This document shows, piece after piece, positions 21,655 through 34,525 of a stretch of DNA of 37,358 bases; within the stretch, counting starts at the first letter, position 1; each line of letters starts with the position of its first letter. The position numbers and the translations under genes are program-made. The stretch covers positions 1-37,358 of the forward strand of contig JAICSC010000003.1 in the NCBI GenBank assembly GCA_025937085.1, given 5' to 3'. The DNA comes from Nocardioides sp. (GTDB lineage: Bacteria; Actinomycetota; Actinomycetes; Propionibacteriales; Nocardioidaceae). The notes beneath the pieces are model-generated. The model searched no databases. It was not told where the DNA came from and was given only the letters and a program-made list of their open reading frames with translations.

Positions 21655-22676
21655 TCATGTGGATCCGGTCGCGGCTTGAGTGTTGCGGGCTCTTCCTTCG
21701 AGGTTGAGGCAGGCGACCTCATGGGCGGGGTCTGGGCTCGGCGAGGGTTCGAGGGACGGGGAGAGTGACGAGCAATCCTCGGTGGAGATCGGGCAGCGGG
21801 GATGGAAGCGGCATCCCGTGGGGATCACGGCTGCGTCGGGGATTTCTCCGCTGAGGATGGCGCGCTTCACGCGGATGCGGTGCGGCTGGGGTACGACGGA
21901 GAGCAGGGCCCGAGTGTAGGGATGCTGCGGGTCGGTCACGATCCGCCGGGAGGGTCCGATCTCGACGATGCGGCCGAGATACATGACCGCGATCCGATCA
22001 GCGTAGTGGGCGGCGGTGGACAGGTCGTGGGTGATCATCAGGATGCCCAGCCCCGAGCGGCGGAGCTGGTCGAGGAGGTCGAGGATGCCGGCGCGCACGG
22101 AGACGTCGAGCATGCTCACCGGCTCATCCGCGATCAGCAGGTCTGGCTCCAGCACCAGCGCGGCGGCGATCGCCACCCGTTGGCGTTGACCACCGGAGAG
22201 CTCGTGGGGTCGGCGAGGGAGGAACAGCTCGGCCGGGCTGAGGCCGACCTGCTCGAGAGCCTGCCGCACGCGCTCCCGCCGCGCCTGCCGGGACGGCAGG
22301 CTCCGATGCACCAGCAGCGGCTCCTCCACGATGCGTCCCACCGGGTAGCGGGGATCGAGGGACTCGTAGGGGTCCTGGTAGATCAGCTGCATCTCCTTCC
22401 GGAGCGCCCTGAGCCGCGACCCGCTCAGGCCGGCCAGGTCCGACCCCTTGAATCTGACGGTGCCCGCGGACGCCTCGACGAGCCGGAGTACGGCGTGTGC
22501 CGTGGTGGTCTTGCCGCTTCCGGATTCGCCCACCAGCGCGAGCGTCTCCCCGCGGTCGAGGGTGAAGCCGACCGAGTCGACGGCTCGTACGACCTCTCGC
22601 CGGCGGCCAAGCGTGCCGACGCCGCGGCCCGAGCCGAAGGTGACCTCGAGAGCTCGGACGTCCAGCAGATGGTCGG

Positions 22677-22680
<4 letters not shown>
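21655..22680 (-). CDS. Peptide ABC transporter ATPase, DppF/OppF-like
   Basis: A 341-residue ATPase and last gene of the peptide-uptake operon. It has Walker A 'GESGSGKTT', Q-loop '[13 protein letters not shown]', signature 'LSGGQRQR', Walker B '[12 protein letters not shown]' and H-loop 'ITHDLS'. The C-terminal oligopeptide domain has the cysteine-containing '[15 protein letters not shown]', a motif that binds an Fe-S cluster in some family members. The start is a TTG in TTGA, overlapping the stop of the DppD-like gene by four bases; the long track ORF upstream of it is a shadow. It forms a heterodimer with the neighbouring ATPase to energise import. Confidence 0.93.
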
Positions 22681-23671
<991 letters not shown>

Positions 23672-23675
<4 letters not shown>

Positions 23676-24619
23676 CGCGCCGCTCCTGGCAGACCGCGCC
23701 GGCCGGGCAGGACGCGGAAGTGCTGACGCGACAGATGGGAGACGCGCAGTCGCGGGTTGAGCGCGTCCTCGAGCGCGGTGCCCATCATGGTGAGGCTCAA
23801 GATGATGGCGGTGACCACCAGGCCCGGGTAGAGGATCGCCCACCATGCGTTGTTGGAGACCGCACCGGCCTGGGAGGCCAGGGCGATCATCCGGCCCAGG
23901 GACGGCCGGTTCGGGTCGCCGAGGCCGAGGAAGCTCAGGGCAGTCTCGTCGAACACCGCGACCGCGAAGGCCAGCACCCCGCACACCACGAGCAGCGGGG
24001 CCAGCTGGGGGAGGACGTGCCGGGTGACGACGTGCCCTGGGCTGGCGCCCAGAGCTCGGGCACGTCGTACGTAGACCCGCTCGCGGAGACTCTTGGTCTG
24101 GGAGCGGATGACTCGCGCGGTCCACGTCCACAGGATCAGTCCGATCACCACGATCAGCTTGGTCAGACCCGTGCCCCACACCGCGGCGATGATCATCATC
24201 AGGGGCACCTCGGGAACCACGAGGAAGAAGTCGGTCAGCCGCATCAGCCAGCCGTCGGTGCGCCCGCCGGCGTACCCCGCGACCACGCCGACCAGGGCGC
24301 CGATGCCGACCGCAATGGCGGTGGCGCCGAAGCCCACCAGAAGCGTCGTGCGGGTGCTGTACAGCAGCAGGGTGCGGATGTCCTGGCCCCCGTCGTCCAG
24401 GCCGAGTGGGTGCGCACCCGACGGAGACGCGAAGCCCTCACCGACTCGCTGGTAGAGCGGCGTTGGTGCGAGCAGCGGCGCGGCGACGGCGGCGAGGACG
24501 ATCAGCAGCAGGACGACGAGGCCGATCATCGCCGAGACGTTCTGGCGCAGCAGCCGGCGCAGTGACCAGCTACGAGGCAACGAGGTTTCCGGGGCCAGGG
24601 CGAGGGGTGGTGTGCTCAT
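23672..24619 (-). CDS. Peptide ABC transporter permease, DppC/OppC-like
   Basis: A 315-residue inner-membrane permease. It begins with a cytoplasmic tail and TM1 ('NVSAMIGLVVLLLIVLAAVAAPLLAP'), then 'HPLGLDDGGQDIRTLLLYSTRTTLLVGFGA', a strongly conserved DppC segment. The EAA loop that contacts the ATPase is 'RRARALGASPGHVVTRHVLPQLAP', and 'DETALSFLGLGDPNRPSLGRMI' is characteristic. ATG 24619 overlaps the DppB-like stop (ATGA). It pairs with the DppB-like subunit to form the translocation pore. Confidence 0.93.
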
Positions 24620-25608
24620 GTGGTGATCCTCGGATCGAGACGGGCGTAGAGGAGGTCTGCCACGAGGTTGCAGAAGACCACCGAGATGGTGATGACCAGG
24701 AACGCGCCTTGGATCATCGGGTAGTCCCTGGCCTGGATGGCGTCGTAGCTGAGCAGGCCGATGCCCGGCCACGAGAACACGGTCTCGACCAGGATCGAGC
24801 CGCCGGCGATGAACCCGATCGAGAGTGCCACCAGGGTCACCACCGGCAGCAGCGCGTTGCGGAGCGCGTGCCGGATCAGGACGACGCGGGGTCGCAGGCC
24901 CTTGGCGCGTGCGGTGAGCACGAAGTCCTCGCCGAACGTCTCGAGCAGGGCCGAGCGCACCACCAGCGTGTATTCACCGAACAGCACGAGGGCCAGAGTC
25001 ATCGACGGCAGGAGCATGTGGGTCGCGGTGTCGCGCAGCACGGCGGTGCTCGAGACGGGGACGCCGATGTCGCGCGCGGCCATCAGACCCGGGTCGTGCA
25101 TCCCGGCCGAGGGGAGCCAGCCGAGCATGACCGAGAACACCAGGATCAGCATCAGGCCGAGCCACTGCGTGGGCAGCGCATAGAAGAACATCGACACGAA
25201 GGTCGAGCTCTTCTCCACCGCGTGTCCGCGCCACCACGCGGCGACCACTCCGAAGACCAGGCCGAGGACGATCGCGGTCACGGTGCCCAGGGTGACCATC
25301 GGCACGGTGGTCCGCAGCGCCTCCAGCAGCTGCGAGGTGACCGGCTGCTGGTTGGTGTAGGAGATGCCGAGGTTGCCGTGCCCGAGCTCGCGCAGGTAGT
25401 CCAGGTACTGCCGCCACAGCGGCTGGTCGAGGCCGAACTGCCGCACCAGTGCCCGCCGGGTCTCCTCGGTCCCGTTCGGCACCCGCGCGAGCCGGCTGGT
25501 CGGGTCGCCCGGCATCAGCCGGAGCAGGAGGAAGTTGAACGTCACCGCGACGTACGTCGTCAGCAGCGCGGCCCACACCCGCCGCAGTACGTAGCGCGAT
25601 TGCTTCAT
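24616..25608 (-). CDS. Peptide ABC transporter permease, DppB/OppB-like
   Basis: A 330-residue permease starting 'MKQSRYVLRRVWAALLTTYVAVTFNFLLLRLMPGDP', the typical DppB N-terminus. It has about six helices, the EAA loop 'TARAKGLRPRVVLIRHALRNALLPVV' and the final 'ETVFSWPGIGLLSYDAIQARDYPMIQG'. The ATG at 25608 follows GAGGACT and was preferred to the upstream start, which would read through a hairpin. 63 bases containing that hairpin separate it from the binding-protein gene, suggesting lower expression of the membrane components than of the binding protein. Confidence 0.93.
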   Translation of the reverse strand: MKQSRYVLRRVWAALLTTYVAVTFNFLLLRLMPGDPTSRLARVPNGTEETRRALVRQFGLDQPLWRQYLDYLRELGHGNLGISYTNQQPVTSQLLEALRTTVPMVTLGTVTAIVLGLVFGVVAAWWRGHAVEKSSTFVSMFFYALPTQWLGLMLILVFSVMLGWLPSAGMHDPGLMAARDIGVPVSSTAVLRDTATHMLLPSMTLALVLFGEYTLVVRSALLETFGEDFVLTARAKGLRPRVVLIRHALRNALLPVVTLVALSIGFIAGGSILVETVFSWPGIGLLSYDAIQARDYPMIQGAFLVITISVVFCNLVADLLYARLDPRITT

Positions 25609-25631
25609 GGAGTCCTCGCCGAAAAGGGAAC

Positions 25632-25662
25632 GTCCGGGAGGGTGGGTCACACCCTCCCGGAC
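25632..25662 (-). terminator. Intra-operon hairpin between binding-protein and permease genes
   Basis: GTCCGGGAGGGTG (25632-25644) and CACCCTCCCGGAC (25650-25662) are a perfect 13-bp inverted repeat with a 5-nt loop. On the transcribed strand it is followed by GTTCCCTTTTC. It can act as a partial terminator or 3' stabiliser so that the binding protein is made in excess. Confidence 0.7.
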
Positions 25663-25671
25663 GACCGGGGG

Positions 25672-27312
25672 TCAGTCGCGCTGTGCGTCGACCATGGAGG
25701 TGACGGCCAGTGCGTTGTAGGGGCCGTACATCGTGTTCTGGAAGCCGGACCAGGACTTGTCGTGGGCACTGATCTGGTTCTTGTAGCCCAGGAAGATATA
25801 CGGCAGGTCGTGCGCCAGGATTCGCTCCATCCGGTAGACGATCGCCTGCCGCTTCGCAGCGTCGAGCTGCTTGCCCTGCTCCTGGTAGAGCTTGTCGTAT
25901 GCCGGGTTGCAGTAGCCGGTGTCGCTCCAGCTGCCGTACTGGCTGCACAACACCACCGAGAGCGCGAAGTCCGGGTCGGGCAGCATCCCCCAGGTCCACA
26001 TCGCCAGGTCGAAGTCCAGGTACTTACCGTCCGGGGCGGTGACCAGGTCGAAGGCGGTCGAGTCGTCGACCTTCTTCTGGTTGACCTGGACGCCGATGGC
26101 CTTCAGCCACCCTTGGACCATCGAGAACATCCGGTCGCCCTCGGTCAGGTCCGGCATGATCACGTCGTAGCTCATGCGGTGGCCGTCTGCGACCCGGATG
26201 CCGTCGGAGCCGCGTCGGTAGCCGAGCGAGTCGAGGATCTGGTTCGCCTTCGCGGGGTCGTACGGCGCGGCGTGCAGCGAGGGGTCGGACCAGCTGCCCG
26301 TCGCCGGCGGGACGATCGAGTTGGCCAGCGTCGCCGTGCCGAGCCACACCGTCTGCACCATCTCCTGAAGGTTGAACGACAGGGCGAAGGCCTCGCGCAC
26401 CTTCGGGTCCAGCAGCTCACGATGCTGCGGCTTCTTCGGGTTGGAGTTGAAGATGAAGTCCGACAGGGCCGGGGACGGCGCCTGGTCGACCTGGAACCCG
26501 GCCTGCTCCAGCGGCTTGATCCCGCTGGGGGGGAGGGTCTCGATCAGGTCGATCTCGTGGTTGCGCAGGGCCGCGATCATCGCGTCGTCGTCATTGAACA
26601 TGGTCAGGCTGATACCGGCGACGTGCGGCCGTGTACCCCAGAACGTCGGGTTGGCCTTGAGCGTCGCGCTGGCGTTCTTCTTGTAGGACTGGACGATGAA
26701 CGGCCCGCCGGAAACCAGAGGTGTCGTCATGGAGGCGCTCTTGAAGTTCCCGGTCTTGGCGTAGGTGTCCCAGAATTGCTCGGGCAGGATCGGCACCTGC
26801 TGCAGCTGGGAGAGCACGTTGGCCACGGGAGCGTCATAGCTGAAGACGACGGTGTCGTCGTCGGTCGCGGTCACCGTCTTCAGGTGGCTCACGGTGCTGG
26901 CCCAGTTGCCCGCGCCCTTGTCCTGGTACTTCACCATCGTGGTGAACGACCAGGCGACGTCGTGGGCGTCGAGGGCTTGCCCGTCCGACCACGTCGCCCC
27001 GGGCACGGTGTGGAAGGTCCACTTCTTGCCGTTGTCGCTGGTGGACCAGCTCTTGGCGAAGTACGGGACGAAGTCCAGCTTGTCGTCGTACATCACCAGG
27101 TAGGGATAGGTGACCTGGAACGTGGAGTAGGTCAGGGAGTTCAGCCCCACGAAGGGGTTCAGCGAGTCGATCTCGTCGTTGCTGCCGATCCGCAGGATCT
27201 GGGTCGCGGACGACGACCCGCCTCCCCCGGTGCCGCCGCTCGAGCACGCCCCGAGCAGCACCATCGCCGCCGCGAGTCCGGTGGCGATCTTGTAGGCGCC
27301 GGTGTGTCGCAC
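25672..27312 (-). CDS. Peptide ABC transporter substrate-binding lipoprotein (SBP family 5)
   Basis: A 546-residue exported lipoprotein. Its signal 'TGAYKIATGLAAAMVLLGACSS' ends in the lipobox LGAC, followed by a Gly/Ser linker. The mature part shows family 5 features: 'DSLNPF', 'YPYLVMYDDKLDFVPYFAKSWSTSDNGKKWTFHTVPGATWSDGQALDAHDVAWSF', and 'LDPKVREAFALSFNLQEMVQTVWLG'. It captures peptides or peptide-like substrates outside the membrane and delivers them to the DppB/DppC-like pore. The GTG start at 27312 is preceded by GAGGAGG with good spacing. It lies 53 bases downstream of the deacylase gene, suggesting N-acylated D-amino acids or D-residue peptides as cargo (inference). Confidence 0.93.
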   Translation of the reverse strand: MRHTGAYKIATGLAAAMVLLGACSSGGTGGGGSSSATQILRIGSNDEIDSLNPFVGLNSLTYSTFQVTYPYLVMYDDKLDFVPYFAKSWSTSDNGKKWTFHTVPGATWSDGQALDAHDVAWSFTTMVKYQDKGAGNWASTVSHLKTVTATDDDTVVFSYDAPVANVLSQLQQVPILPEQFWDTYAKTGNFKSASMTTPLVSGGPFIVQSYKKNASATLKANPTFWGTRPHVAGISLTMFNDDDAMIAALRNHEIDLIETLPPSGIKPLEQAGFQVDQAPSPALSDFIFNSNPKKPQHRELLDPKVREAFALSFNLQEMVQTVWLGTATLANSIVPPATGSWSDPSLHAAPYDPAKANQILDSLGYRRGSDGIRVADGHRMSYDVIMPDLTEGDRMFSMVQGWLKAIGVQVNQKKVDDSTAFDLVTAPDGKYLDFDLAMWTWGMLPDPDFALSVVLCSQYGSWSDTGYCNPAYDKLYQEQGKQLDAAKRQAIVYRMERILAHDLPYIFLGYKNQISAHDKSWSGFQNTMYGPYNALAVTSMVDAQRD

Positions 27313-27365
27313 GTTGCCTCCTCGGGCACTGGGGTTTGTCGGACGTCGACCTCGACTGCGTGGGC

Positions 27366-28922
27366 TCACGACCCCTCCTGATGACGGGTGATGGGACGGC
27401 CGGGCATGTTGTGCGGGAGCAGACTCCCGTCGCGCACGACGGGTGTGCCGGCGACCAGCACGTGCCGGACGCCGTCGGACGGGAGCAGGTCGTGGTACGT
27501 CGCACGAGCCGCGATGCCGTCGGGGTCGAAGACCGTGATGTCGGCATCGGCACCCGGCCGCAGCCGACCCTTCCGGCTCATCGCCGGTGCCGCGTCGCCC
27601 AGGATCTGGGCTGGGACCAGCGTGCAGCGGCGGATGGCGTCGGGAAGCGACAGCAGGCCGCGCTCGCGCACCAGCGTGCCGAGCACCCGCGAGAAGCAGC
27701 CGGCGCTGCGCGGGTGGGCGAACGCACCGGGGGCCAGAGGCCAGTCGTCACGCCCGGACAGGGTGGTCGTGACCGGGATCGCGTCACTGGCGAACGCGGC
27801 ATGCGGGATCGTGAGGGACCGGTCGAACAGCCGTGCCTCGGCGGCGTCGGAGACGTCGTACGTCGTGGTCAGGACCAGCCCACCCGGGTCGGTGGCACGC
27901 AGCTCATCCAGCCGCCGGGCATCGGCGATCGACTCGCCGGTGGGCAGGTAGGTCAGCGAGGAGGGCGACCGGTCCTCGCGCGCGAGCTCCTCGGCGGACA
28001 GGAACGCCGCGCCGACGATCGTGGACCCGCGCTCGTAGGGATAGGCCTCGGTGGTGATGTGGACCCCGCGCGACCGCGCAGTCTCGATCGTCTCGACGAT
28101 CTGCGGCAGCCAGGACGAGGACGTGCTGTTGACGTGGCACAGGTGCACGTGGGCATCCGCCCGCTCTGCCGTGGTGACCAGCTCGGTCACGGCGTCGAGC
28201 GCGGTGACCGGACCGCGAGCCGCGCTCGAGCGGCTGTGCACGACGGTTGGGGATCCCAGCCGGGCCGTCAGGGAGGCGACGTCGGCCAGCTCGCCCGGCT
28301 CGGAGTCGGGCAGGTAGCCAAGCATCGCCCCCACGGCGACAGCGCCGTCGGCGACCTGGCGCTCGAGCAGCTCCAGTACGCGCCGCCGCTCCGGCTGGCT
28401 AAGGCTCCGCCGTTCCTTCGTGTACGCCGACATCGCCTGGAACGCCGCGAACCCGGTCTCGTACCGTTCCGGGGGAGCGACCGGCATCCCGTGCACGGCC
28501 GCGCGGGCCATCGCCCACGAGGCGGCGTACCCGAAGTTCAGCGGGCGGCCCTCGGCACGGGCACGGTCGTGCCACTGGGCCACTTCGAGCACGCCGCACT
28601 CCAGGTCGAGCGCCGTGGTGACGCCGTCCAGGACCTGCAGCCGGGCACCGGAGATCGACTGCGCATGCGAGTGGAGGTCGATGAACCCGGGACAGACCAC
28701 CAGGCCGGTGCAGTCGACGTACTCGCGGGCACGGCCGAGACCCGGGCCGACCGTGATGACCCGCCCGCCGCCGACGGCCACGTCCGCGATCGCGTCCAGG
28801 CCGCTCTCCGGGTCGATGACCCGCCCCCCGACCAAGGCGATCTCCACGCCGATCTCCCCGCCGATATCCCCGCCGATCTCCACGTCGTGCCCGACGTCGG
28901 CACCTGGTGGACTGATGAGCAT
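27366..28922 (-). CDS. Amidohydrolase, N-acyl-D-amino-acid (D-glutamate-like) deacylase family
   Basis: A 518-residue metal-dependent amidohydrolase predicted to release free D-amino acids from N-acyl-D-amino acids. 'GGRVIDPESGLDAIADVAV', 'GLVVCPGFIDLHSHAQ' (metal ligands His84, His86) and 'DGVTTALDLECG' (Cys109 in the place of the D-aminoacylase metal ligand) resemble N-acyl-D-glutamate deacylases. Later come 'HLCHVNS', 'TEAYPYERG' and the catalytic-acid segment 'FASDAIP'. It starts at ATG 28922 after GGAGAAGG. The N-terminus carries four GxEI-like tandem units from a 12-bp DNA repeat. It is the first gene of the ABC uptake operon, so transport and deacylation are probably co-expressed. Exact substrate is unknown; dihydroorotase-like function is less likely. 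Confidence 0.85.
   Translation of the reverse strand: MLISPPGADVGHDVEIGGDIGGEIGVEIALVGGRVIDPESGLDAIADVAVGGGRVITVGPGLGRAREYVDCTGLVVCPGFIDLHSHAQSISGARLQVLDGVTTALDLECGVLEVAQWHDRARAEGRPLNFGYAASWAMARAAVHGMPVAPPERYETGFAAFQAMSAYTKERRSLSQPERRRVLELLERQVADGAVAVGAMLGYLPDSEPGELADVASLTARLGSPTVVHSRSSAARGPVTALDAVTELVTTAERADAHVHLCHVNSTSSSWLPQIVETIETARSRGVHITTEAYPYERGSTIVGAAFLSAEELAREDRSPSSLTYLPTGESIADARRLDELRATDPGGLVLTTTYDVSDAAEARLFDRSLTIPHAAFASDAIPVTTTLSGRDDWPLAPGAFAHPRSAGCFSRVLGTLVRERGLLSLPDAIRRCTLVPAQILGDAAPAMSRKGRLRPGADADITVFDPDGIAARATYHDLLPSDGVRHVLVAGTPVVRDGSLLPHNMPGRPITRHQEGS
28840..28887. repeat. Four tandem 12-bp units inside the deacylase gene
   Basis: ATCTCCACGCCG, ATCTCCCCGCCG, ATATCCCCGCCG and ATCTCCACGTCG follow one another (plus strand). 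They encode DVEI-GGDI-GGEI-GVEI in the deacylase N-terminus, leading into the first beta strand. Copy number could vary between strains. Confidence 0.8.
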
Positions 28923-28967
28923 CGTCGCCTTCTCCGTCGGATCACGTGCGCGGCTTCCGGCCGCTGT

Positions 28968-28988
28968 GGCGCATCGAGACAATGCGCC
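28968..28988. promoter_or_regulatory. Inverted repeat between deacylase and PucR genes
   Basis: GGCGCAT (28968-28974) and ATGCGCC (28982-28988) form a perfect 7-bp inverted repeat with a 7-base spacer in the 121-bp divergent region. A direct repeat GGCCGCTG flanks it on both sides. A candidate operator for the PucR-family regulator. Confidence 0.45.
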
Positions 28989-29043: not shown

Positions 29044-30663
29044 GTGACCTTGTCCGATCCCACGAAGCATCGCTCCGGTACCGCGCCCATCTCGCTCCGT
29101 GCGTTGCTAGAGGCCCTCGGGCCCTCCGCGCTCGACGTGCTCGTGGCCCCGGTCGGACTCGACGTCGGGGTGCGGGGAACCGCGATCTTCGACGCCGTCG
29201 ACCCCGTGCCCGACGGCCCGGACTCGATGTTGATCCTCGTCGGCACCCGAGCGGACTCACCGGAGATCGCCGACCTCGTCCGCGCGGCCGCCGATCACGG
29301 GTTCGTCGCGCTGGTGGTCAAGCTGCGAGGGTGCGACACGACGGCTCTGGTCGACGAGGCCCGCGGGCGAGGACTGGCCGTGCTCGCGACCCCCGACGAC
29401 GTGCCGTGGCGGCACCTGGACGGCCTGCTCGTCTCGGTCTTGGGCTCCGGTGGCCTGCCGAACGGCGACGCTACCGGCCCGGGCGAGACCCTGTTCGCGG
29501 TCGCGAACGCACTGGGCGCGATCATCGGCGGCTCGGTGGCGATCGAGGACCTCGCCCAGCACGTGCTGGCCTACTCCTCGGTCGCGGGCCAGCAGATCGA
29601 CCCACTCCGGGAGCGCGGCATCCTCGACCGGCGTGTGCCGGACTATCCGCACCACCGCGGTCAATACCTCCAGGTGCTGCAGAGCCCCGGAGTGACCCGC
29701 TTCCCGCCGGTCGACGACGAGCTCCCTCGTGCCGCGGTCGCCATCCGAGCCGGCGACATGCCGCTGGGGACGATCTGGGCCATCGAAGGGGAGGACGGCC
29801 TGACGCCCGAGGGTGAGCGCGCCCTGCTCGACGGGGTCAAGGTGGCGGCCCTGCACATGCTCCGCGAGCAGGACGTGGGTGAGCGGGAGCGGCACCTGCG
29901 GGGCGAAGTGCTGCGGGCGATGCTGGCCGGCACTCGCTCGGCGGAGGACGGCGCGGAGCGGCTCGGCCTGACGCCGGGCTCGCGTGCGGTCCTGGTCGGG
30001 TTCGCCACGGTGGAGCCGGACCCCAGCGGGACCGTGATCGCCCGGGTCGGCCATGCGGTGAGCCAGTACGCCGCGGCGTACCGGCCGGAGGTCGCGATCG
30101 CGACCACACCGGACGCCGTGTACGCCGTGGTCTCCGGCGCCGATGACGGCGTCCGCCGGTTCTCGGACGGTGCCCTGGCCAGCTCGTCGAAGGCGACCGG
30201 CACCACCGTCCAGGCGGCGATGACCAGGTCCACCGGGGACCTCGACGACCTGGCCACCCTGCGCGCCGAGGTCGATGCCGTGCTCGGTGCGGCCATGGCC
30301 GATGAGCGAGCGCCGGCCGTCGCGACGGTCGCGGACGTCCACACCCGGCTGTTGCTCGACAGGGTCGGCGACCAGCTCGCCCGGGACCCGCGCCTTCGTC
30401 ACCCCGAGGTCCAGCGGATGACCGAGCACGACCGAGACCGCGGGACCGACTACGGCGTGACCGTGCTGGCCTGGCTGGAGGCGTTCAACGACATCGGCAG
30501 CGCCGCGGCCCGGCTCCAGGTGCATCCCAACACGCTGCGCTACCGGCTGCGCCGGATCGAGGAGAAGTTCGGGCTGGACTTCACCGACCCCGAGAGCCGC
30601 CTGTCGGCCTGGCTGCAGCTCCGGATGGTCGAGGCGCGACCTCCAGCCCAGAGCAGCACCTAA
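29044..30663 (+). CDS. PucR/CdaR-family transcriptional regulator
   Basis: A 539-residue regulator. The N-terminal PucR sensory domain spans about 15-130 ('LRALLEALGPSALDVLVAPVG', 'RAAADHGFVALVVKLRG'). A GAF- or GGDEF-like middle follows, and a C-terminal PucR helix-turn-helix lies at about 475-520 ('GVTVLAWLEAFNDIGSAAARLQVHPNTLRYRLRRIEEKFGLDF'). Start is GTG at 29044. Relatives activate catabolism of purines, sugar acids, amino acids or polyamines in response to the substrate. It is divergent from the deacylase/ABC operon and 94 bases upstream of the second D-aminoacylase-like gene, so it is the obvious local regulator of the cluster. Confidence 0.9.
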   Translation: MTLSDPTKHRSGTAPISLRALLEALGPSALDVLVAPVGLDVGVRGTAIFDAVDPVPDGPDSMLILVGTRADSPEIADLVRAAADHGFVALVVKLRGCDTTALVDEARGRGLAVLATPDDVPWRHLDGLLVSVLGSGGLPNGDATGPGETLFAVANALGAIIGGSVAIEDLAQHVLAYSSVAGQQIDPLRERGILDRRVPDYPHHRGQYLQVLQSPGVTRFPPVDDELPRAAVAIRAGDMPLGTIWAIEGEDGLTPEGERALLDGVKVAALHMLREQDVGERERHLRGEVLRAMLAGTRSAEDGAERLGLTPGSRAVLVGFATVEPDPSGTVIARVGHAVSQYAAAYRPEVAIATTPDAVYAVVSGADDGVRRFSDGALASSSKATGTTVQAAMTRSTGDLDDLATLRAEVDAVLGAAMADERAPAVATVADVHTRLLLDRVGDQLARDPRLRHPEVQRMTEHDRDRGTDYGVTVLAWLEAFNDIGSAAARLQVHPNTLRYRLRRIEEKFGLDFTDPESRLSAWLQLRMVEARPPAQSST

Positions 30664-30757
30664 AGCTGAACGGTATGTGAGCCACGACAAGGCCGGCCGC
30701 GCGAGTTGTCACGGGCGCGCAAAGCGCCGAGCTGGGCAGGGCTGGCAGGCTGCCCAG

Positions 30758-32383
30758 GTGCCCGACTTCGACCTCGTGCTGCGGCAGGGACTCCTGGTGG
30801 ACGGAAGCGGCGCCGACCCGGTGGTCGGCGACCTCGCCGTGGCCGGCGACCGCATCGCCGCGATGGGGCCCCGCATCAGCGGACGCGGCACTCGCGAGCT
30901 GGACGTGTCCGGGCTGGCCGTCTCACCGGGGTTCGTCGACATGATGAGCTGGGCACCCGAGACGCTGATCGAGGACGGGCGATCCCTCAGCGGCCTCATG
31001 CAGGGTGTGACGCTCGAGGTGATGGGCGAGGGGACCTCCATGGGTCCGCTCGACGAGACGATGCGGGCTGCGCTCCGGGCCGGCGGGATCTCCGGCCGCG
31101 AGGACGGGTTCCGCTACCCGGTCGAGTGGACGTCGCTGTGGCAGTACCTGGAGTGGCTGGAACGTCGAGGGGTCTCGGTGAACGTCGCCTCGTTCGTCGG
31201 GGCCGGGACGTTGCGCGAGCACGAGATCGGGTACGCCGACCGCCCGGCCTCGGACGCCGAGCTCCGGCGGATGTGTGCGCTGCTCGACGACGAGATGAGA
31301 CACGGCGCGGTCGGGGTCGCCTCGGCACTGATCTACCCGCCGGAGACGGCGTACACCACCGCGGAGCTGACGGCGCTGGCTCGCGTGGCATCGGCACATG
31401 GCGGGATGTACGCCTCGCACGTCCGAAGTGAGGGGGAAGGACTCCTCGAGGCGGTCGCCGAGCTGATCGAAATCGCCCGGGACGCGCACGCCCGCGCGGA
31501 GGTGTACCACCTCAAGGCTGCCGGCCGCGCCCACCGGCACCTGCTGCCCGCGGCGATCGCCCTCATCGACGACGCGCGCGACGCCGGCCTCGCGGTGACC
31601 GCGGACGTCTACCCCTACGAGTACTCGGGCACCTCGCTCAGCGCCTGCATCCCGCCGTGGGCGCACGAAGGCGGTCCGGCGGCACTCCGCGCACGCCTGG
31701 ACGACGGGTCCGTCCGCGAGCAGATCCGCGCGGACATGGAGCGTCCGGGCTGGGAGAACCCGATGCTCGACGCCGGCCCCGAGCACATCTCGGTCCGCGG
31801 GCCGCTGGGTGCCGAGCTCGCCCGGTTCTCGGGTCTCTCCCTGGCCCGGGTCGCCGAGGCCATGGGGACAACGCCCGAGGACGCCACCATGGACCTGGTC
31901 CGAGACAACCGCGGGGACGTCTTCGCGCTGTACTTCGACATTGATCCGTCGGACGTACGCCTGGTCGCGAGCCGTCCATGGGTGAGCTTCTGCTCAGACG
32001 CGGAGTCGCTGTCGTCTGAGGCTGCCGAGCGCGACGGTGCGGTCCATCCTCGGGCCTTCGGCGCGTTCGCCCGGGTGCTGGGCAGGTTCGTGCGCGAGGA
32101 GGGGATCGTGTCGCTGGCCGAGGCCGTGCGCCGGATGACCAGTCTCCCCGCGGAGAACCTCCGTCTCACCGGCCGCGGAAGGCTGGGGGTCGGGTACGCC
32201 GCGGACGTCGCCGCCTTCGACCCCGCGACCGTGGTCGACCGCTCCACGCCCGCGCAGCCGCACGCATACGCCGAGGGCATGGTGCACGTGCTCGTCAACG
32301 GCACGCCGGTGCTGCTCGACCGCGTCCACACCGGGGCCACCCCCGGACGGTTCGTCCGCGGGCCGGGCAGCCGCTCTTCCTGA
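30758..32383 (+). CDS. D-aminoacylase-family amidohydrolase, HxH-less variant
   Basis: A 541-residue amidohydrolase of the N-acyl-D-amino-acid deacylase family: 'FDLVLRQGLLVDGSGADPVVGDLAVAGDRIAAMG', later 'YHLKAAGRAHRHLLPAAIALIDDARDAGLAVTADVYPYEYSGTSL' and 'FCSDAESLSSE' with the catalytic-acid region. The usual 'GFIDxHxH' metal motif is replaced by 'GFVDMMSWAPETLIEDGRSLSGLMQGVTLEVMGEGTS'. This resembles a known subgroup reading 'GFIDMLGQSE...GEG', so substitution rather than damage is likely. Metal content and chemistry may differ from classical D-aminoacylase. Start chosen at GTG 30758, where homology begins; the track start at 30677 adds 27 basic residues. Same direction as PucR; convergent with the GNAT gene seven bases away. 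Confidence 0.82.
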   Translation: MPDFDLVLRQGLLVDGSGADPVVGDLAVAGDRIAAMGPRISGRGTRELDVSGLAVSPGFVDMMSWAPETLIEDGRSLSGLMQGVTLEVMGEGTSMGPLDETMRAALRAGGISGREDGFRYPVEWTSLWQYLEWLERRGVSVNVASFVGAGTLREHEIGYADRPASDAELRRMCALLDDEMRHGAVGVASALIYPPETAYTTAELTALARVASAHGGMYASHVRSEGEGLLEAVAELIEIARDAHARAEVYHLKAAGRAHRHLLPAAIALIDDARDAGLAVTADVYPYEYSGTSLSACIPPWAHEGGPAALRARLDDGSVREQIRADMERPGWENPMLDAGPEHISVRGPLGAELARFSGLSLARVAEAMGTTPEDATMDLVRDNRGDVFALYFDIDPSDVRLVASRPWVSFCSDAESLSSEAAERDGAVHPRAFGAFARVLGRFVREEGIVSLAEAVRRMTSLPAENLRLTGRGRLGVGYAADVAAFDPATVVDRSTPAQPHAYAEGMVHVLVNGTPVLLDRVHTGATPGRFVRGPGSRSS

Positions 32384-32390
32384 ACGACCT

Positions 32391-33263
32391 TCAGGCCCGA
32401 CCGCGGCGCACGACGTAGAACCCATCCCGGGTGAAGCCGATCGTCTCGGCCCCGGACCGCACGGCCTGCCCCAGGTGGTGGCGCAGCAGCATCCGCCACT
32501 CGAGCGCGAGCGACTCGTCCTGGGCACGCATCCCGGCGGCGTCCTCGGGGGCGGCGATCAGCACCATCGGCTCCCCGTGGTCGGGGCCCTCCCGGGGCGC
32601 ACCGTCCGCGTCCCGGGTCAGCAGAGTCGCCGAAGGAGACGTGATGAGCGTCGGGTCTGTCGGGACAACCTCGCCGCGCGCGGCCGAAGCGACCCGCGAG
32701 CTCCCGAGGTCCCAGGAGACCAGGAGCCGGTCGGTCGGGAACACCGACCCCGTGCCGTCGCCGTGATCGCCGTAGAAGTTGTCGAGGTACTCGACCGGGC
32801 GTGCCGAGAGCTTGGTCAGGTTCACGTACGCGTTGCGGGCCTCCAAAGGGTCGTAGGTCCACTGGATGCGCAGCACCCCGTGCGCCATGGCCCACGCGCG
32901 CTGCGAGACCTTCAGCGCCCAGCCGACCCCCGAGCTTCGCTCGGCGGGTGCGACCACGGCGAGATGACTGTGCAGGTCCTCGCGGCCCGAGGACCCGAAG
33001 AAGGCCACGCAGGCGCCGACCAGCACGTCGTCCCGGTAGGCGCCGCCGATGTAGCTGCCGACCTTCCGCAAAGCCCGAAGCGTCGAGACCGAGATCTCCG
33101 CCGGCCAGTTCTGGTTGATCACCTCCGCGGCGGCGGACAGCTCATCGACGGAGTCGAGCACGTCGGTCCGAACCCCCGACCGCGCAGCCGCGGCGGCCGC
33201 CGCGACAGCGGCCTCATCCCACGCACCGGACGCCGGCGGGACGGTGCGGCTCGACAGGCTCAT
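32391..33263 (-). CDS. GNAT-superfamily acyltransferase of the NSAR-associated type (COG3375-like)
   Basis: A 290-residue protein. An acyl-CoA binding GNAT core lies at about 85-150: 'VGACVAFFGSSGREDLHSHLAVVAPAERSSGVGWALKVSQRAWAMAHGVLRIQWTYDPLEARNAYVNLTKLSARPVEYLDNFYGDHGDGTGSVFPTDRLLVSWDL'. The segment 'WTYDPLEARNAYVNLTKLG..YG....PTDR' is distinctive of COG3375 proteins, often found next to OSBS/NSAR genes. In Geobacillus a GNAT neighbour of NSAR is reported as a succinyl-CoA:D-amino-acid N-succinyltransferase. This gene is divergent from the NSAR-like gene, supporting the same role here (inference). Start is ATG 33263; the track ORF beyond it is antisense to NSAR. Confidence 0.82.
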   Translation of the reverse strand: MSLSSRTVPPASGAWDEAAVAAAAAAARSGVRTDVLDSVDELSAAAEVINQNWPAEISVSTLRALRKVGSYIGGAYRDDVLVGACVAFFGSSGREDLHSHLAVVAPAERSSGVGWALKVSQRAWAMAHGVLRIQWTYDPLEARNAYVNLTKLSARPVEYLDNFYGDHGDGTGSVFPTDRLLVSWDLGSSRVASAARGEVVPTDPTLITSPSATLLTRDADGAPREGPDHGEPMVLIAAPEDAAGMRAQDESLALEWRMLLRHHLGQAVRSGAETIGFTRDGFYVVRRGRA

Positions 33264-33404: not shown

Positions 33405-33427
33405 TCGGCCGAGAGGTGGGAGAAGGC

Positions 33428-34525
33428 GTGATCGTCGAGGCCGTCGAGATCCGCGTGGTCGACATCCCGCTGAAGCAGCCGTTCCGCACCTCGCAAAGCA
33501 TCCAGCACTCGCGACGAGCGCTGCTGGCGCGGGTGATAACCGACGCGGCCGAGGGTTGGGCGGACGTGAACGTCGAGGACGAGCCGATCTTCGGCCACGA
33601 GTTCCTCTCCGCGACCTGGGCGGCGCTCGAGGAGCTGTTGGTCCCCCAGCTGCTGGCCGGCCCGGCGAGCGCGCCCCTGGCCGCCGCGCGGATGTCGCGG
33701 GTGGTCGGACACCCGGCGGCCAAGGCGGGACTCGAGATGGCTCTCCTGGACGCCGAGCTGCGGGCATCTGGGATGTCGCTGCGCCGCTACCTCGGCGGCA
33801 CCCGCGACCGCGTCCCGGTCGGTGTCTCAGTCGGAATCACCGACACCCTGGCCGAGCTCCTGACCACCGTCACGGAGTACGTCGACGAGGGCTACCCACG
33901 GATCAAGCTCAAGGTCCAGCCCGGCTGGGACCGCGAGCCGATCGCCGCGGTGCGCGCCGAGTTCGGCGCCGAACTTGCCCTCCAGGTGGACGGGAACGGC
34001 GCATACAGCAGCGCCGACCTCCTGCACGTCTCCGGCTGGGACGAGTTCGGCCTGGAGATGATCGAGCAGCCCTTCCCGGCCCACGACCTGCTCAGCCACG
34101 CCCGGCTCGACGCCCGCATCTCCACCCCGGTGTGCCTGGACGAGTCGATCGGCTCCGCGACGGAAGCCGCCGCCGCGATCGCGTCGGGCGCGTGCCGAGT
34201 GGTCAACATCAAGCCCGGCCGGGTGGGCGGCTACCTGGAGGCGCGTCGCATTCACGACGTGTGCGACGCGCTCAGCGTGCCGGTCTGGTGCGGAGGCATG
34301 CTGGAGTCGGGTGTCGGCAGGGCAGCGAACCTGGCCCTCGCGTCGCTGCCGAACTTCCGGTTTCCCGGGGACATCTCTGCCACGTCCCGCTACTTCGCCG
34401 AGGACATCTGCCCACCCTTCGTCCTGCACGACGGCATGCTCGACGTCCCCGACAAACCGGGGATCGGGGTCGACGTCGACCCCGATGTCCTCGATCGGTT
34501 CACCTCCCGGCGCCTTCTTCAGTGA
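33428..34525 (+). CDS. Enolase-superfamily enzyme, N-succinylamino-acid racemase / o-succinylbenzoate synthase type
   Basis: A 365-residue enzyme of the muconate-lactonising subgroup. General acid/base lysines are Lys160 and Lys162 ('IKLKV') and Lys262 ('NIKPGRVGG'). Metal ligands are Asp188 ('VDGNGAY'), Glu213 ('MIEQPF') and Asp238 ('CLDESI'). 'WCGGMLESGVGRAANLALASLPNFRFPGDISATSRYF' is the NSAR/OSBS family hallmark. OSBS acts in menaquinone synthesis; NSAR interconverts N-succinyl-D- and L-amino acids, and many members do both. With no other men genes in the window and a GNAT and two deacylases nearby, NSAR is favoured. Start is GTG 33428 with GGAG five bases upstream; GTG 33416 is an alternative. 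Confidence 0.88.
   Translation: MIVEAVEIRVVDIPLKQPFRTSQSIQHSRRALLARVITDAAEGWADVNVEDEPIFGHEFLSATWAALEELLVPQLLAGPASAPLAAARMSRVVGHPAAKAGLEMALLDAELRASGMSLRRYLGGTRDRVPVGVSVGITDTLAELLTTVTEYVDEGYPRIKLKVQPGWDREPIAAVRAEFGAELALQVDGNGAYSSADLLHVSGWDEFGLEMIEQPFPAHDLLSHARLDARISTPVCLDESIGSATEAAAAIASGACRVVNIKPGRVGGYLEARRIHDVCDALSVPVWCGGMLESGVGRAANLALASLPNFRFPGDISATSRYFAEDICPPFVLHDGMLDVPDKPGIGVDVDPDVLDRFTSRRLLQ

Follow-up and report, generated by a model that had tools for sequence, protein, structure and literature searches.

OngB, a GlcNAc1A deacetylase built on the D-aminoacylase scaffold, holds one Zn on Cys97, His222 and His252 and uses Asp368 as both base and acid; its alpha site is empty and its activity is maximal at one Zn (PMC12017989). 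Replacing either HxH histidine (His68 or His70) with Ala abolishes activity, though no metal is bound there (PMC12017989). NagA-type enzymes carry a Glu/His/His site, classed as subtype IV (PMC12017989). The E. coli enzyme has QxN for HxH and a single metal at the beta site (PMC3880350), and among mycobacterial NagA variants QxN is active with a 7-fold higher Km and AxA is dead (PMC6016474).

Relatives of D-aminoacylase appear in several contexts. In Pyrococcus, the gene for the D-specific serine peptidase Pab87 lies near a D-aminoacylase gene and a dipeptide transporter, an arrangement read as D-peptide use (PMC2651629), and one D-aminoacylase homologue has been assigned to a uric-acid pathway (PMC12507026). 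We found no description of a Glu-type D-aminoacylase without HxH in a literature search that largely missed subscription journals.

Active site of the window protein

The window analysed here, 37,358 nucleotides of a Nocardioides sp. contig (JAICSC010000003.1), encodes a D-aminoacylase homologue, the window protein. It matches the Pfam profile PF07969 (38.2 bits against a cut-off of 29.7, E = 1.7e-9) and D-aminoacylase 1m7j/1rjp (E about 1e-59), and a profile of its clade matches 1rjp at 404 bits; NagA was absent from its sequence matches. We accepted the start at 30758 because homologues begin near there, and the gene limits given in the earlier note fit it; residues are numbered with this GTG as residue 1.

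For comparison, we collected homologues from plasmid records and the genomes of Actinomycetota and examined the equivalent positions. The 90 that were classified fall into three site types: E-type (22, including the window protein; GE followed by G, A or S), C-type (32; NCG) and D-type (36; QDG, PDG or VDG). The gene and its key residues are as follows.

30758..32383, + strand: E-type D-aminoacylase homologue, 541 aa from the GTG at 30758 (the ORF opens at 30677, GTG)
30938..30952, + strand: D61-M62-M63-S64-W65 at the DxHxH position, with neither His present (motif table, 90 homologues)
31025..31033, + strand: G90-E91-G92, one residue shorter than the N-C-G metal-ligand motif with which it aligns; Glu91 is the putative metal ligand (Glu in 22/22 E-type)
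31418..31420, + strand: His221, expected beta-metal ligand (His222 in OngB; invariant in 90/90; role per PMC12017989)
31508..31510, + strand: His251, expected beta-metal ligand (His252 in OngB; invariant in 90/90; role per PMC12017989)
31997..31999, + strand: Asp414, expected to act as catalytic base/acid (Asp368 in OngB; present in every E-type and D-type protein and in 31/32 C-type, with one gap)
32045..32053, + strand: H430-P431-R432, conserved motif (22/22 E-type)

Alignment to solved enzymes, which read DSHTH or DVHTH and GNCG at the two altered sites, bore out the earlier note's readings of DMMSW at the DxHxH position and GEG at the Cys position. Its view that the C-terminal catalytic region is well kept also held, with His221, His251, Asp414 and H430-P431-R432 all present. 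The GEG reading can be refined: by alignment, the change from N-C-G to E-G is a substitution plus a one-residue deletion, and the profile alignment sets Glu opposite Asn with Cys as an insert. Because of the deletion, sequence alone does not settle whether Glu91 matches the exact position of the Cys side chain. Glu91 is a metal ligand by inference, since the AlphaFold models of the window protein (mean pLDDT 33.5 from a single sequence and 41.8 with three sequences) are too poor to overlay.

The window protein departs from the subtype V metal site of D-aminoacylase in two features and keeps the third. Where that subtype has a Cys ligand in NCG, it reads GEG with no Cys, and where HxH lies on strand 1, it reads MSW; the two beta-site histidines and the catalytic Asp are all in place (H221, H251, D414). 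The Glu, His and His of a NagA-type (subtype IV) beta site have apparent counterparts in the window protein that are invariant across the E-type.

Three site types and a single E-type clade

The first HxH histidine separates the E-type from its relatives. Position 63 is Met or Leu in all 22 E-type proteins and His in all 68 others, with the whole HxH kept in 32 of 32 C-type and 36 of 36 D-type proteins. Position 65, the second histidine, is still His in 19 of the 22; Gemmatirosa has Gln there, and both Croceicoccus marinus and the window protein have Trp. With the second histidine gone as well, the window protein stands at an extreme of its clade. Glu91, His221, Arg223, His251, Asp414 and H430-P431-R432 are invariant throughout the E-type, whose members are 38–50% identical to the window protein where aligned and share type-specific residues outside the site, such as Glu333 (probably in an insertion region) and Trp408.

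NCG is present in every C-type protein (32/32), and the D-type has Asp at the Cys position. The D-type loci (L011, L044, L107, L113 and others) form a large actinobacterial group that keeps HxH and places the Asp of QDG at the metal-Cys position. With HATMN or a similar sequence replacing SHLKA after their second beta histidine, they represent a third kind of site within this family.

When the motif columns were left out, the tree placed the 22 E-type proteins on one side of a branch (SH-aLRT 86; 97 without Gemmatirosa, the deepest member). Since the E-type is a single clade on this motif-free tree, the link between Glu91 and the lost histidine reflects one ancestral event rather than 22 independent ones. 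The second histidine was probably lost twice, once in Gemmatirosa and once in the pair that Croceicoccus forms with the window protein (support 94). Six E-type pairs gave dN/dS values of 0.18–0.31; the window protein, which has no sufficiently close relative, was outside this test. The E-type proteins in those pairs are under purifying selection, and together with the invariant catalytic residues the values make a dead enzyme unlikely.

The E-type is a small clade with a patchy distribution over distant bacteria. Its members come from four phyla: Actinomycetota, Pseudomonadota (Croceicoccus), Deinococcota (four plasmids) and Gemmatimonadota. The actinobacterial members include a further copy in the source genome as well as sequences from two Embleya plasmids and one Rhodococcus plasmid. 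Among 397 genomes sampled in the order of the source organism, four scored above a strict profile threshold, and two of these four supplied further E-type sequences beyond the 22 (L165 and L166). A scan of genome contigs returned one homologue, and a search of viral contigs returned none. The second copy in the source genome (G000:C224:5363-6955; L002, L102) is 44% identical, reads NPLSH and GEG, and has no racemase or GNAT gene within the 16 kb read. Several Glu-type proteins carry the plain database label D-aminoacylase.

Gene neighbourhood

The genes around that of the window protein are as follows.

21655..27369, − strand: oligopeptide/dipeptide-type ABC transporter (PF00496, PF00528, PF00005, PF08352)
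25672-27369, − strand: transporter binding protein (ORF limits)
24616-25650 and 23672-24772, − strand: transporter permeases (ORF limits, overlapping)
22677-24179 and 21655-23406, − strand: transporter ATPases (ORF limits, overlapping)
27366..28982, − strand: second amidohydrolase, keeping HxH (DLHSH) and Cys (ECG) (NF006560, 545.8 bits against a cut-off of 340; PF07969)
29044..30663, + strand: PucR/CdaR-type transcription regulator, its gene separating those of the two amidohydrolases (PF13556, 1.4e-19)
32391..33263, − strand: GNAT-like acyltransferase, probable start 33263 (PF00583 weak, E = 0.011; clear homology to Deinococcus GNAT)
33416..34525, + strand: N-acylamino-acid racemase/o-succinylbenzoate synthase-type enolase-superfamily protein (1sja, 388.8 bits; TIGR01928, 272 bits against a cut-off of 200.65)

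The racemase/OSBS assignment of the 33416-34525 product is backed by a full-length alignment to 1sja in which the KxK, acid and NIKPGRVGG stretches are aligned; the protein may serve either as a racemase or in menaquinone synthesis. The GNAT-like protein scores 73–84 bits against annotated Deinococcus GNAT genes that lie beside E-type genes. Pfam barely recognises it; its relatives adjoin racemase genes in Deinococcus and actinobacteria, and the group has a conserved core, W-(T/A)-(F/Y)-D-P...N. The earlier note had the second amidohydrolase adjoining the window protein with HxH and Cys intact; both motifs are kept, but the two genes are not immediate neighbours, as the PucR-type gene lies between them. 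One more genome of this genus (L095) also pairs an E-type gene with an HxH homologue, and there the two occur together with transporter parts, GNAT, racemase and PucR genes. The two homologues may have divided roles, as the earlier note suggested.

Related gene sets recur in other phyla. In three Deinococcus plasmids the E-type gene belongs to an uninterrupted same-strand series with genes for racemase, GNAT, permeases, binding protein and a PF00144 serine hydrolase. Croceicoccus combines a dipeptide epimerase, a peptide transporter, a DUF1611 protein, a serine hydrolase and the E-type gene; there (L056, 5140-7292) the DUF1611 gene and an adjacent gene for a Pfam-less protein come before the serine hydrolase and E-type genes. 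Across the 21 E-type neighbourhoods besides the window, several of which end at contig ends, racemase and GNAT genes each appear in 5 and a serine hydrolase gene in at least 11.

We dropped the idea that a racemase/GNAT neighbourhood is an E-type speciality, as canonical Cys/HxH relatives show the same one. The slot is filled by the E-type in the window, in L095 and in the three Deinococcus plasmids. Among 20 control neighbourhoods, seven of nine C-type loci have a racemase gene, six of them with GNAT, and none of the 11 D-type loci gave a strong racemase match; the C-type controls come mostly from one family and are not independent. Because the C-type also occupies this slot, the neighbourhood points to use of N-acyl-D-amino acids or D-peptides by C-type and E-type proteins alike, and not to new chemistry.

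A D-type gene in Tsukamurella (L113, 3374-10647) clusters with alanine racemase, a sugar kinase, a 2-keto-3-deoxy acid aldolase, RidA and a gluconate symporter, a set that recalls the amino-sugar-acid cluster of OngB. A similar gene set occurs in the halophilic archaeon Haladaptatus (L110, 8584-11945), where two dipeptide-epimerase genes with a DUF1611 gene between them follow a C-type homologue.

A probable one-metal deacylase and its alternatives

We consider the window protein, with a probability of roughly 60%, an active one-metal deacylase that binds its metal through Glu91, His221 and His251 and acts on N-acyl-D-amino acids or D-peptides. The kept beta histidines and Asp, the lost Cys, the invariant Glu at the same strand end and the NagA precedent all point to a Glu/His/His site with one metal. 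Loss of HxH need not cost the catalytic metal, because OngB works with the beta metal alone (PMC12017989). Against this reading stand the abolished activity of the OngB His-to-Ala variants and of mycobacterial NagA AxA, the one-residue deletion at Glu91, and the presence of a racemase gene in just 5 of the 21 other E-type neighbourhoods, several of them cut off at contig ends.

In the proposed mechanism, loss of both HxH histidines would dismantle the alpha metal site, and Glu would take the place of Cys at the beta site. One divalent metal, probably Zn, would be held by Glu91, His221 and His251, polarise the amide carbonyl and carry the water, with Asp414 acting as base and then as acid. The substrate would most likely be an N-acyl-D-amino acid or else a small peptide containing a D residue, brought in by the neighbouring peptide transporter, and the GNAT/racemase pair would process the released D-amino acid. 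In a route described in Geobacillus, a D-amino acid is acylated, its N-acyl form is racemised, and the L-amino acid is released by an L-specific deacylase. Here the set includes a D-aminoacylase relative, which may supply such a route with D-amino acids instead of forming its last step.

The same metal site could instead serve another reaction or substrate class, such as another amide, a ureido compound or an N-acyl sugar-acid, with the D-amino-acid context misleading. Substrates do change in this family, as OngB and the uric-acid homologue attest (PMC12017989, PMC12507026), and the clade-specific Glu333 and Trp408 would fit such a shift. We nonetheless think it unlikely: neighbourhoods with racemase, GNAT, dipeptide epimerase, serine hydrolase and peptide transporter genes recur across phyla, and C-type relatives occupy the same racemase slot. 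The earlier note had offered altered metal use or a different reaction. The first is likely and well supported by inference from the lost alpha histidines, the exchange of Cys for an invariant Glu, the kept beta histidines and Asp, and the E. coli NagA precedent; the second is not supported, since canonical Cys/HxH relatives fill the racemase/GNAT slot in other genomes.

That the protein has lost its site and is non-catalytic or metal-free is improbable. Both HxH histidines and the Cys are gone, and the equivalents of those histidines, His68 and His70, are essential in OngB (PMC12017989); yet all 22 sequences keep both beta histidines, the Asp and Glu91, relatives have dN/dS of about 0.2–0.3, and the catabolic context recurs. 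An ordinary two-metal site, in which residues replacing HxH still bind the second metal, could draw on the second histidine kept in 19 of 22 E-type proteins. We give it very little credence: Met and Trp occupy the two His positions in the window protein, and the other clade-specific conserved acids, E248 and E333, probably face away from the barrel centre and lie in the insertion region, respectively. An assembly or base-calling error, conceivable in a fragmented draft of 435 contigs that is 86% complete, is refuted by the homologues, with the sister Croceicoccus marinus reading NMLSW and GEG and with GE-G and the lost first His common to 21 other sequences as well as to the later finds L165 and L166.

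Implications

For the clade as a whole, we tentatively propose, at somewhat short of even odds, that a D-aminoacylase with a Cys ligand and a dependence on HxH was converted in nature into an enzyme that uses Glu as ligand and has no alpha site, its catalytic Asp positioned and tuned by one histidine or, in the window protein, by neither. If so, the E-type is a distinct site type in the D-aminoacylase family, and the need for HxH seen in OngB does not hold generally. A natural clade in which one histidine and later the other disappeared allows a direct test of what HxH does in one-metal amidohydrolases, with HxH, LSH/MSH and MSW as a ready natural series. The database label D-aminoacylase also calls for caution where it covers Glu-type proteins.

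Comparison with known enzymes

Known enzymes share different parts of this arrangement. Alcaligenes faecalis D-aminoacylase (1M7J) and Bordetella bronchiseptica N-acyl-D-glutamate deacylase (3GIP) share the fold, full-length homology, the beta-site histidine pair and the catalytic Asp with the window protein, but have HxH and the NCG Cys ligand where it has DMMSW and a GEG that is one residue shorter. The Pyrococcus Pab87 neighbourhood likewise joins a D-aminoacylase to a dipeptide ABC transporter, and a PF00144 serine hydrolase gene occurs at many E-type loci as well; the window differs in having racemase and GNAT genes and no PF00144 gene among the ORFs scanned. OngB (9KB1) has in common with the window protein its family, the Asp base/acid and, probably, a one-metal beta site, and differs in its Cys/His/His ligands, its two essential HxH histidines and its chitin-oxidation context. 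E. coli NagA and the window protein are alike in lacking HxH, and the Glu/His/His beta site with one metal in NagA would have its counterpart in the window protein, whereas NagA belongs to another amidohydrolase family and acts on a sugar-phosphate substrate.
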